The position numbers were made by a program, and so were the translations under genes. Below the pieces are notes generated by a model. The model was not told where the DNA came from. It did no database searches and saw only the letters and a program-made list of their open reading frames with translations. This document shows, one piece after another, positions 22,990 to 44,071 of a DNA stretch of 64,000 nucleotides; within the stretch, counting starts at the first letter, position 1, and each line of letters begins with the position of its first letter. Origin of the DNA: Balneola sp. (lineage in GTDB: Bacteria > Bacteroidota > Rhodothermia > Balneolales > Balneolaceae); the NCBI GenBank assembly GCA_028284195.1, contig JANQSE010000002.1:434001-498000 (forward strand), read 5' to 3'.

Positions 22990-23360
22990 GGCTCCTCATA
23001 AAGACTCTTTGCTCTGGATGACGAGGAAAAGTCACTCAGAGCGTAAGCGATGAGTCCTCCCAAACAGAATTTGGTGAGATCAGGGCTGTGTGGATCCTTC
23101 TCCCGACAGCTGTCGGGATCTGGATGACTCGTTGATCGGGTTCGGTTCCAGTCACTCAGAGCGTAAGCGATGAGTCTTCCCGGCAGAGAATCCAACCAGG
23201 ACAAAATTGTGCAGATTCTTCACTCCGTTCAGAATGACAAAGTCACTCCGAGGGGTCTTCCGAAGGAATGCCTTTGGCAGAAGAGTCTTCCCAAACAGGA
23301 TTTGGCAAGAACAGGGTTGTGCAGATCCATCGCTCCGCTCTGGATGACTTTTATGGCTGC
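22990..23360. repeat. Repeat cluster A: tandem diverged copies of a roughly 100-bp intergenic repeat
   Basis: No gene here. The stretch holds about four diverged units. A unit begins GTCACTC plus either AGAGCGTAAGCGATGAGTC or a CGAGG variant, continues through an AACAGGATTTGGCAAGATCAG-like middle, and ends in a GATCCATCGCTCCGCTCTGG core followed by ATGAC. The core contains an inverted pair ATCCA/TGGAT, and whole units are bounded by GTCA and TGAC. The clearest copy ends at 23348. Further clusters are at 27.4-28.1, 28.47-28.65 and 31.1-31.55 kb. Short open frames across it (for example 23170-23394) are made of repeat sequence and are not genes. Confidence 0.8.
23101..23118. repeat. Perfect 18-bp palindrome inside repeat cluster A
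   Basis: TCCCGACAGCTGTCGGGA is its own reverse complement. It replaces the GATCCATCGCTC core in one repeat unit and can form a cruciform or RNA hairpin. A partial relative (GATCCCGACAGTGGTC) occurs in cluster D near 31357. Confidence 0.85.
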
Positions 23361-26688: not shown

Positions 26689-27330
26689 ATGAGTAAAAAA
26701 AAGCACAGTGTTTGGATTGTAGAAGACGATCTCTTTTTCAGAGAGTCACTGGAAGGACTGATACAGGCTCAGAATAATCTTGAACTCACATTGTCTGAAA
26801 CTTCTGTGGAAGATGTGTTCGCCTGTCTTTTAACCGGCAACTCACCGGATATTATTTTACATGACATTGGCCTGCCCGGCATGTCTGGCATTGAAGCAAT
26901 CCCGTATTACAAAAAACAATTCCCGGAAGTATTAATCGTAATGTTAACCATCTTTGAAGAAGACGAGCAGGTTTTTGAATCCATAAAAGCAGGAGCGGAT
27001 GGATATCTTCTGAAAAGAACTCCGGGAGATGATCTGATTAAGGGAATTCAGGAAGTGCTTTCAGGCGGGGCACCTATGTCTCCGGGTATCGCCAAAAAAG
27101 TAATGGAAATGCTTGCTCATGGCGGGCCTAAAAAAAAATCCAACCTTACACCCAGAGAAACAGAAGTGCTAACACTGTTAGTAGATGGGTTAACAATGGA
27201 TATGGTTTCAACGAAACTTAAAATTTCCCCGGGAACGGTAGATTCCCACATCAAGCACATTTATAAAAAGCTCCAGGTGCATAACCGAGCTGAAGTGGTT
27301 TCAAAAGCCATTAAAGACCGGCTTGTTTAG
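26689..27330 (+). CDS. Response regulator, NarL/FixJ (LuxR-type HTH)
   Basis: 213 residues. The receiver domain (about 1-125) has acidic residues in VEDDLFF and the phospho-acceptor Asp59 in ILHDIGLPGMSG, with Lys near 108 (LLKRTPGD). The C-terminal LuxR HTH (about 148-210) reads LTPRETEVLTLLVDGLTMDM and SPGTVDSHIKHIYKKL. It follows its partner kinase by 43 bases on the same strand. No target operon can be assigned; the neighbouring secreted proteins are candidates only by position. Confidence 0.94.
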   Translation: MSKKKHSVWIVEDDLFFRESLEGLIQAQNNLELTLSETSVEDVFACLLTGNSPDIILHDIGLPGMSGIEAIPYYKKQFPEVLIVMLTIFEEDEQVFESIKAGADGYLLKRTPGDDLIKGIQEVLSGGAPMSPGIAKKVMEMLAHGGPKKKSNLTPRETEVLTLLVDGLTMDMVSTKLKISPGTVDSHIKHIYKKLQVHNRAEVVSKAIKDRLV

Positions 27331-27394
27331 GATATAGATACTCCTCGTTCCGAAGCCCCGAAGGGATTCATTAAAATAACCCGCTACTACATTA

Positions 27395-27592
27395 AAAAGT
27401 CACTCAGAGTGGAGCGAAGGATCCACCCGGGGATTGCTTCGTCGAATTTTATTGATGTCTTAGCGTAACCCAGTCTCCTCGCAAAGACTGCCTTTCCTGT
27501 AATAGCTTTTCCGGGTCATTACGAGGAGTACGTTAGTTATTTAGGGTTGAGGGTTTTATCGACGAAGTAATCCCCTCGATAGCGCACTGTTG
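27395..27592. repeat. Repeat cluster B1: mixed dispersed repeats
   Basis: This is part of a 793-base gene-free stretch after the response regulator. AAAGTCACTCAGAGTGGAGC near 27400 is a shortened unit of the cluster A repeat. At 27515-27592, GTCATTACGAGGAG and later CGACGAAGTAATCCCCTCG resemble the GTCATTGCGA-type repeat found at 42935, here interrupted by about 30 unrelated bases. No coding frame is convincing. Confidence 0.55.
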
Positions 27593-27755
27593 AATGAATA
27601 GAAATTGTTTCTTTCTCTGACCCATTTTTCTTGCAGGCAGAACTGCTTTTTTCGTCAGGGATTTTTTTTGGGAAGGCCTGGGCTTTATGAGGAGCGACGA
27701 ACTGAACTCCTTGCTTGTTTATGTACCAGATAGTGTCAATGCCATAAACAAGACA

Positions 27756-27869: not shown

Positions 27870-28090
27870 AGTAGGGAATTGGGCTGTGCAGATCCATCGC
27901 TTCGCTCTGGATGATGAGGAAAAGTCACTCCGAGGCATCGAGGAGTCTGCCTGGCCATAAAATCGAGTAGGGAATTGGATTGGGAGAAGAGTCTTCCCAA
28001 ACAGGATTTGGCAAGATCAGGGTTGTGCAGATCCATCGCTCCGCTCTGGATGACTCGTTGATAGGGTTCGGGAGTGGGATCTGGATGACT
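27870..28090. repeat. Repeat cluster B2: two copies of the roughly 100-bp repeat
   Basis: Copies of the GATCCATCGCT(C/T)CGCTCTGG core start at 27891 and 28030. Between them lie the GTCACTCCGAGGCATCGAGG start-of-unit and a CCTGGCCATAAAATCGAG spacer segment that also occurs in cluster D (31230). It lies immediately before the GIY-YIG gene. Confidence 0.75.
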
Positions 28091-28123
28091 TTTTAAATAG
28101 CTATATGTTTGGTATAGTAAACG

Positions 28124-28492
28124 ATGAGCTTTACTGTTTACATAACCACCAACCCAAATAGAAAAGTTCTGTACACCGGAACCTCTAATAACCTTTCAAG
28201 AAGAGTTATTGAGCATTACCTACAAAGAGGTAAGCCAGAAACCTTTGCCGGCAAAAACTACTGCTATAACCTTATCTACTACGATGTTTTGCCAACTATG
28301 CTTGAAGCCATTTCAGCAGAAAAAAGGATTAAAGGTAAATCCAGGAAATGGAAAGAAGAATTGATTACATCGTTAAACCCAAAATGGAAATTTTTGAATA
28401 AAGAGATTGTTGGAGAATGGTCACCGCAAAAGGTTTTAGAAGACCCGTATTTTCAGAATTACCTGGGAAGTCACTCAGAGCGTAAGCGATGA
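28124..28492 (+). CDS. Small GIY-YIG nuclease whose 3' end lies in a repeat copy
   Basis: 122 residues. Single-domain GIY-YIG endonuclease of the stand-alone type common in Bacteroidota. Catalytic elements: VYI (5-7), YTG (17-19), Arg26/Arg27 in NLSRRVIEH, and probable metal-binding Glu66 in AISAEKRIKG; the NPKWKFLN end block is also present. The family normally ends soon after this block. Here the last eight residues (GSHSERKR) and the stop are read from a GTCACTCAGAGCG repeat that starts at 28470, so a repeat inserted in or beside the 3' end and now supplies the TGA. It is flanked on both sides by the same repeat family. DNA target and role unknown. Confidence 0.85.
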   Translation: MSFTVYITTNPNRKVLYTGTSNNLSRRVIEHYLQRGKPETFAGKNYCYNLIYYDVLPTMLEAISAEKRIKGKSRKWKEELITSLNPKWKFLNKEIVGEWSPQKVLEDPYFQNYLGSHSERKR

Positions 28493-28655
28493 GTCTTCCC
28501 GACAGAGAATCTAACCAGGACAAAGTTGTGCAGATCCATCGCTCCGCTCTGGATGATGAGGAAAAGTCACTCCGAGGCATCGAGGAGTCTTCCCAAACAG
28601 GATTTGGTAAGATCAGGGTTGGGTGAATTCTTCGCTCCGCTCTGGATGACCCGTT
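28470..28655. repeat. Repeat cluster C: two copies of the roughly 100-bp repeat
   Basis: The first unit starts with GTCACTCAGAGCGTAAGCG at 28470 inside the end of the GIY-YIG gene, with its GATCCATCGCTCCGCTCTGG core at 28533. The second begins with GTCACTCCGAGGCATCGAGG and ends with a GAATTCTTCGCTCCGCTCTG variant and GGATGAC near 28650. Both are in the same orientation as in the other clusters. Confidence 0.78.
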
Positions 28656-31103: not shown

Positions 31104-31550
31104 AAAGTCATCCAGAAGGAGCTGGAGCGACTGATGGATCTACCCAAACAGAGTTTAGCAAGATCAGGGCTGTGTGGATCCATCGCTCCGCTCTGGATGA
31201 CGAGGAAAAGTCGCTCCGAGGGATCGAGGAGTCTGCCTGGCCATAAATCAAGCAGGGAATTGGATTGGGAGAAGAGTCTTCACAAATAGAATTTAGCAAG
31301 ATCAGGGTTGTGCAGATCCATCGCTCCGCTCTGGATGACGAGGAAAAGTCACTCCGATCCCGACAGTGGTCAGGAGAGGAGTCCTTCCAAATAGAATTTG
31401 GCAAGATCAGGGCTGTGTGGATCCATCGCTCTGCTCTGGATGACGAGGAAAAGTCACTCAGAGTGTAAGCGATGAGTCTTCCCGACAGAGAATCTAACCA
31501 GGACAAAATTGTACAGATCCTCCACTCCACTCTGGATGACTCGTTGACAG
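31104..31550. repeat. Repeat cluster D: about four or five copies of the roughly 100-bp repeat
   Basis: The 607-base space between the two sorting-tail genes is almost wholly repeat. GATCC cores start at 31177, 31315, 31420 and 31516 (spacings 138, 105 and 96), each followed by CTCTGGATGAC and then a new GTCACTC or GTCGCTC start. A shortened unit is at 31108. A CCTGGCCATAAATCAAG spacer is shared with cluster B2. Apparent frames rich in FSSSSRAERW on the minus strand are repeat-derived, not genes. Confidence 0.8.
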
Positions 31551-42934: not shown

Positions 42935-43022
42935 GTCATTGCGAAGGTGAGCGGTAGCGAATCTGTAGCAATCTTAAGAGGATCGCCGCAGTCATAGCCA
43001 AAGGCTATTCCCTCGCGATGAC
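42935..43022. repeat. Dispersed repeat of the GTCATTGCGA type between fixC and etfA
   Basis: 88 bases with inverted ends: GTCATTGCGA at the start and TCGCGATGAC at the finish (one mismatch between arms), and inner pieces AGCGAATC and GGATCGCCGC. This repeat type is widespread in intergenic DNA of many bacteria. It ends at the etfA stop and fills nearly the whole 101-base gap, so it would lie in the operon message as a hairpin. Confidence 0.7.
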
Positions 43023-44020: not shown

Positions 44021-44071
44021 GTGATTCCGCACTTGATGCAGAATCTGGATTCCTGCTTTTGCAGGAATGAC
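44021..44071. repeat. Dispersed hairpin repeat between etfA and etfB
   Basis: GATTC-c-GCA / TGC-a-GAATC forms one small stem, and ATTCCTGC (44049-44056), loop TTTT, GCAGGAAT (44061-44068) a perfect 8-bp second stem. The element ends in AATGAC. A third repeat type, common in intergenic DNA of other bacteria; it sits within the etfBA transcript. Confidence 0.68.

Follow-up and report, generated by a model that had tools for sequence, protein, structure and literature searches.

Slx1-like GIY-YIG nucleases as probable enzyme partners of CGTC-superfamily REP sequences

The DNA analysed here (the window) is a stretch of 64,000 nucleotides from the genome of Balneola sp. It contains a small gene for a GIY-YIG nuclease lying among copies of a short repeat (Table 1). 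Each repeat unit has a GTC-tagged hairpin at its start and a hairpin of inverse orientation, ending in GAC, at its end, i.e. the two hairpins are head-to-head. The original prediction had noted that the same repeat flanks the gene on both sides, and this is so, with one unit 5′ and two units 3′ to the gene; the tagged head-to-head structure had not been noted. In the clade to which the window gene belongs the gene sits between units, not within one. The first downstream unit enters the reading frame as proposed, although the C-terminal addition is seven residues (SHSERKR) and the stop codon rather than eight residues and the stop. The first codon of SHSERKR begins one base ahead of the repeat.

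Table 1. The nuclease gene and the GTC-tagged repeats of the window.
Feature	Position	Strand	Details
GIY-YIG nuclease gene, Slx1-like/UPF0213-like	28124..28492	+	122 aa; PF01541, E 4e-13
Upstream head-to-head unit	27924..28054	.	131 bp; GTCACTCCGAGG... to ...CTCTGGATGAC
GTC-tagged hairpin	28031..28054	-	GTCATCCAGAGCGGAGCGATGGATC; nearest one 5′ of the GIY-YIG gene
Downstream head-to-head unit	28470..28557	.	88 bp; overlaps last codons and stop of the gene; right end decayed to GAT
Second downstream head-to-head unit	28566..28650	.	85 bp
Dispersed head-to-head unit	23031..23128	.	98 bp
Dispersed head-to-head unit	23151..23238	.	88 bp
Dispersed head-to-head unit	23242..23348	.	107 bp
Dispersed head-to-head unit	31107..31201	.	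95 bp
Dispersed head-to-head unit	31348..31444	.	97 bp
Dispersed head-to-head unit	31453..31540	.	88 bp

The units comprise eight listed by script (85-107 bp) together with the one of 131 bp on the 5′ side of the gene, and those away from the nuclease locus form clusters at 23.0-23.35 kb and 31.1-31.54 kb. The repeat core TCCATCGCTCCGCTCTGGATGA is found at 16 places in the 2.68 Mb genome with up to 3 mismatches; the reversed control is found at none. The genome has four GIY-YIG paralogues. The second of these (L002) is enclosed by two copies of a different repeat that form a perfect inverted pair, with GTCATCCTGAGGATACCTCCGAAGGATC on either side, which also extends the earlier description.

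The window protein is a stand-alone GIY-YIG domain (PF01541). In an alignment of 17 relatives Y6, Y17/G19, R27, H31 and E66 are invariant, i.e. the residues of the GIY and YIG motifs and the R, H and E positions; the original reading was that the catalytic residues appear intact. The AlphaFold model of the protein is confident (pLDDT 95.7). The best solved relatives by profile are the UPF0213 proteins 1ZG2 and 1YWL, and comparison of folds places 1ZG2 at the top and chains of Slx1 next, with UvrC and I-TevI lower. The solved bacterial UPF0213 proteins were assigned to the prokaryotic part of the Slx1 cluster by Dunin-Horkawicz et al. (PMC1564403). The nuclease gene is under purifying selection; dN/dS is 0.02-0.43 in 13 of 14 pairs, and the remaining pair has no non-synonymous change. 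The protein is not itself a RAYT, as it is a PF01541 GIY-YIG protein from which the HUH/Y1 domain (PF01797) is absent.

The association was analysed in 92 genomes of the window's family (each species represented by a single genome, in many cases a draft) that hold 116 distinct genes of the window's nuclease subfamily. By a strict rule (a GTC-A(T/C) hairpin no more than 400 bp from the gene) 77% of the 116 genes have a hairpin and 52% have hairpins on both sides, compared with 14 and 1% for control genes at the same loci (Fisher 6e-25 for 77% versus 14%). Enrichment near homologues, which had been proposed as a check of the pairing, is thus observed in the family, and likewise in other phyla (see below). 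Hairpin density falls from 1.37 per gene within the first 250 bp to ~0.08 beyond 1 kb. A hairpin survey made without specifying a tag found GTC to be the most enriched of the 64 trinucleotides, with 96 seen against 6.2 expected; the stem begins with AT in 84 of these 96 hairpins, and some hairpins in the window begin with AC. The strict hairpin is missing near 23% of the family members. The association is specific to the subfamily. None of 13 genes of other GIY-YIG subfamilies in the family genomes has a hairpin within 400 bp, E. coli yhbQ has no flanking hairpin under the strict rule, and the Y1 transposases of the family genomes, 14% of which have a hairpin, are no nearer to repeats than control genes. 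We also note a further repeat family (ACTCCTCG...GTCATTACGAGGAGT, ...TTCGACGAAGCAATC) close to the window gene, at 27330-27600. The ACTCCTCG...GTCATTACGAGGAGT family also flanks the third GIY-YIG paralogue of the genome (L003, at 1280-1460 and 1790-1880), and is missed by the strict rule.

In other phyla we took 80 loci from species genomes, 71 of which have enough flanking sequence, and looked for GTC hairpins whose stem is perfect over 7 bp and which lie no more than 300 bp away. Such a hairpin is present at 51 of the 71 loci (72%), on both sides in 35 of these 51, and missing at 28%. Here too GTC is the most enriched tag, seen 133 times against 7.0 expected, with an AT stem start in 118 and a CCA tail in 114 of the 133 hairpins. 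The flanking hairpin in these phyla is the canonical CGTC-AT...AT-CCA, the published consensus of the CGTC superfamily of REPs. The marks of that superfamily are an unpaired CGTC (or TGTC/CCTC) tag at one foot of the hairpin, an AT stem start and a CCA tail, with a stem of 8-9 bp, a loop of 4-5 nt and an organization mainly as head-to-head dimers (PMC3733652). Neighbouring repeats in our loci form 27 head-to-head pairs against 5 in the reverse arrangement. The repeats of the window are likely REPs of the CGTC superfamily, although the hairpins of its family have a CTN tail, on stems that are longer and less perfect than those of the consensus.

Most loci from a plasmid collection have palindromes with CGTC, TGTC or CTC tags on both sides; in a Photobacterium locus the tagged palindromes are 3′ of the gene only. 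Hosts in this collection include Azospirillum lipoferum, Sinorhizobium meliloti, Neisseria gonorrhoeae, Novosphingobium aromaticivorans, Planktothrix, Aeromonas and Spirosoma. Neisseria, S. meliloti and A. lipoferum are also listed by Di Nocera et al., who described the superfamily in 2013 and stated that CGTC REPs "apparently lack a dedicated transposase" (PMC3733652). In Rhizobium tumorigenes and Sinorhizobium K101 (L091 and L092) the palindromes near the nucleases of that clade are CTC-tagged and CTCATTCCTGTGCTCGTCACAGGAATCCAG-like, which suggests that the tag itself can change along with the nuclease.

The boundaries of the mobile unit are best defined for the CTGAACTTGTTTCAG-type repeat. 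Cassettes of this type have an exact GTC start and an exact GAC end, 371-434 bp apart in clear cases; most lie in unrelated surroundings and a few are orthologous sites. Head-to-head pairs of the type have discrete lengths, mostly 106-108 and 395-449 bp. The 107-bp units contain no gene and lie mostly at unrelated sites, and share both of the unlike subterminal motifs of the cassette, with GGATCTTTGT at one end and a GGATCTTATG-like sequence at the other. Several of the ~200-420 bp units that lack an intact gene hold relics of the nuclease. In this series the CTGAACTTGTTTCAG-type repeat shows an autonomous element (~400 bp, GTC-hairpin, nuclease gene, hairpin-GAC, with many copies decayed) paired with a non-autonomous one (107 bp). 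Units are also polymorphic in presence. In Azospirillum a cassette lies between sufB and sufC and is absent from close relatives, and an fnrL/response-regulator site in Sphingobium holds a cassette in some strains, a single palindrome in others and neither in still others. Target-site duplications were not found, direct repeats in the flanks being no more frequent than with shuffled partners, and no new insertion within a single strain lineage was seen. In two genomes the nuclease gene and repeat are duplicated in tandem with a period of ~490-540 bp (G091, loci L030/L105; G013, locus L041), and a third (G139) has clustered copies.

Across genomes, the type of nuclease predicts that of the repeat even where the loci are not syntenic. 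Between genomes, the similarity of nucleases correlates with that of their flanking repeats with r = 0.48, or 0.45 when syntenic pairs (with homologous neighbours) are removed; the null, in which repeats were shuffled among the nucleases within one genome, gives 0.07 ± 0.04. Type-B repeats are present in 18 of 19 genomes that have the WPP-tailed nuclease clade, to which members were assigned by hand (one of the genomes has a gene fragment only), but in just 6 of 73 others (18/1/6/67 genomes, Fisher 4e-13).

Repeat number follows the gene, as the original prediction would have it. In the family the excess of repeats per Mb correlates with nuclease number with a Spearman coefficient of 0.62-0.65, and of 0.83 for genus means. 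The partial correlation of repeats with nuclease number given Y1 number is 0.56-0.62, and that with Y1 number given nuclease number is 0.10-0.16. Among 259 more genomes of the phylum, from outside the family, those that have the gene show an excess of 7.1 per Mb and those that lack it 3.8 per Mb (p = 2e-4 by family-stratified permutation). RAYT/Y1 was considered as the mobiliser and rejected, because Y1 genes lie at control-level distance from the repeats and, with the nuclease allowed for, repeat number does not follow Y1. Abundant repeats in nuclease-less genomes, which the original prediction had named as evidence against itself, occur in a minority of genomes and not in most. One such genome (G093) has 524 pattern matches and another (G067) has 100 type-D repeats, with no subfamily nuclease detected in either; three more (G015, G017 and G305) likewise have many GTC repeats and no detected subfamily nuclease. 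The tie between nuclease and repeat is therefore strong, not obligate. Divergent GIY-YIG genes were considered as hidden partners; in G067, G015 and G017 none of the ones checked has repeats beside it. The exceptions may reflect REPs that have outlived their enzyme, draft genomes or other partners.

A close parallel is that of the GTAG REPs and REPINs with their RAYT (TnpA-REP). Both systems have short tagged palindromes that are intergenic and dispersed, mostly as head-to-head dimers of ~100 bp, and a low-copy enzyme gene flanked by cognate repeats with which the enzyme co-varies; in both the repeats may outlive the enzyme, and no target-site duplication is seen here. The differences are that the enzyme here is a GIY-YIG hydrolase and not an HUH/Y1 transposase, that the tag is (C/T)GTC and not GTAG, and that at many loci the gene lies inside an inverted hairpin pair as a transposon-like cassette. 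It is the GIY-YIG gene that is flanked by cognate REPs, and not the Y1 genes of the same genomes. The published CGTC REPs (including dRS3 of Neisseria and RPE-4 and RPE-6 of Rickettsia) share the unpaired CGTC/TGTC tag, AT stem start, predominance of head-to-head dimers and host taxa and, with our loci from other phyla, the CCA tail, the window's family having CTN and less perfect stems; the paper describing them (PMC3733652) finds no transposase dedicated to them and makes no mention of GIY-YIG, whereas here a GIY-YIG gene is flanked. We found no earlier report linking GIY-YIG genes with REP or CGTC repeats in the open-access literature, preprints excluded. The UPF0213 or prokaryotic Slx1-like proteins (1ZG2, 1YWL, E. 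coli YhbQ) have the same stand-alone GIY-YIG domain of ~90-100 aa and are the best matches to the window protein in both sequence and fold, but housekeeping members such as yhbQ have no flanking repeats. GIY-YIG homing endonucleases and Penelope elements also exemplify use of the domain by selfish DNA; by contrast, there is no intron, NUMOD domain or reverse transcriptase here, and the ends are hairpin repeats. MITEs and their parent insertion sequences similarly occur as autonomous, decayed and gene-less copies with common terminal and subterminal sequence, but here there is neither a DDE transposase nor a target-site duplication.

We consider it likely that the repeats are REPs of the CGTC superfamily, that the Slx1-like GIY-YIG nuclease is their partner enzyme, and that together they constitute a minimal family of mobile elements. 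Slx1-like GIY-YIG nucleases would thus be the probable enzyme partners of CGTC REPs, a functional parallel to RAYT and REPIN with an unrelated enzyme. The original prediction of a REP/RAYT-like pair was based on position; it can now be based on co-specificity, presence/absence polymorphism and gene-less derivatives. The autonomous form would be a GTC-hairpin followed by the nuclease gene and a second, inverted hairpin that closes with GAC (~370-435 bp for the one type that is well resolved), or alternatively a gene sitting between two units, the arrangement of the window, and the non-autonomous form a REPIN-like inverted hairpin pair with a short spacer, of 85-110 bp. The palindromes could form hairpins or cruciforms by extrusion where DNA is single-stranded or supercoiled. 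Since Slx1 cuts branched DNA, it is natural to suppose that an extruded hairpin is what the nuclease recognizes; recognition of the cognate hairpin and its GTC foot would be structural, in cis or in trans, and the nuclease would nick at the foot. GIY-YIG enzymes hydrolyse DNA and do not rejoin it, so that joining must fall to host functions, and the freed or nicked unit might be copied or re-inserted by host replication or repair without duplication of the target site. Gene-bearing units would supply the enzyme, on which the gene-less units depend.

The strongest rival, which we nevertheless regard as unlikely, is a form of homing in which the nuclease cuts a solo copy of its own repeat and repair from a cassette copy, using homology in the repeat arms, converts it into a cassette, the repeats spreading by other means. 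GIY-YIG domains are well known from homing endonucleases (PMC1564403), and the Sphingobium site with its cassette, single palindrome or nothing is what such a process might leave. However, the gene-less 107-bp units have unrelated flanks and the same subterminal motifs as gene-bearing cassettes, suggesting that whole units move, and a rise of repeat number with nuclease number would not be expected if there were only homing into existing repeats. We give still less credence to the nuclease being a passenger, a selfish or domesticated repair gene carried by repeats that another enzyme moves. The impossibility of joining DNA by GIY-YIG chemistry alone would fit this, as would the genomes with many repeats and no detected nuclease. 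Yet repeat type is predictable from the nuclease at loci without synteny, Y1/RAYT as the known REP enzyme has no association, and no other gene common to the loci is in view. That small non-essential genes simply pile up in repeat-rich intergenic mosaics is very improbable. Gene and repeats are both intergenic and the window region is a mosaic of repeats, but such an artefact is already contradicted by the control-level or zero association that these genomes show for their Y1 transposases and for small GIY-YIG genes of other kinds, by the co-specificity of nuclease and repeat, and by the exact ends of the cassettes.

A broader reading of the partnership between nuclease and REP is that these are transposable elements of a new class, spread over many bacterial phyla, whose sole protein is a structure-specific GIY-YIG nuclease of ~95 aa acting on GTC-footed hairpin ends, and which is the parent of the CGTC REPs (including Neisseria dRS3 and the rickettsial RPE elements) as non-autonomous derivatives. 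On present evidence we lean slightly towards this. Few short repeats of bacteria are as widespread as the CGTC REPs, and the association is much broader than first envisaged, extending over many bacterial phyla. If the nuclease is indeed the partner of the REPs, GIY-YIG/Slx1-like enzymes would drive mobile DNA also outside introns, the scatter of hundreds of tiny 'GIY-YIG nuclease family' genes over genomes would be explained, and there would be a source of very small structure-guided nickases with known target hairpins. The origin and mobiliser of the CGTC REPs were left open by the 2013 survey (PMC3733652); a nuclease partner makes their origin and movement directly testable.

We note two further repeats in the window. 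A head-to-head unit of a different type (GTCATTGCGAAGG...CCTCGCGATGAC), of another CGTC-like family, lies at 42935-43022. A solo hairpin of canonical CGTC-1-like form (GTCATTCCTGCAAAAGCAGGAATCCA, minus strand) lies between two genes at 44049-44071.
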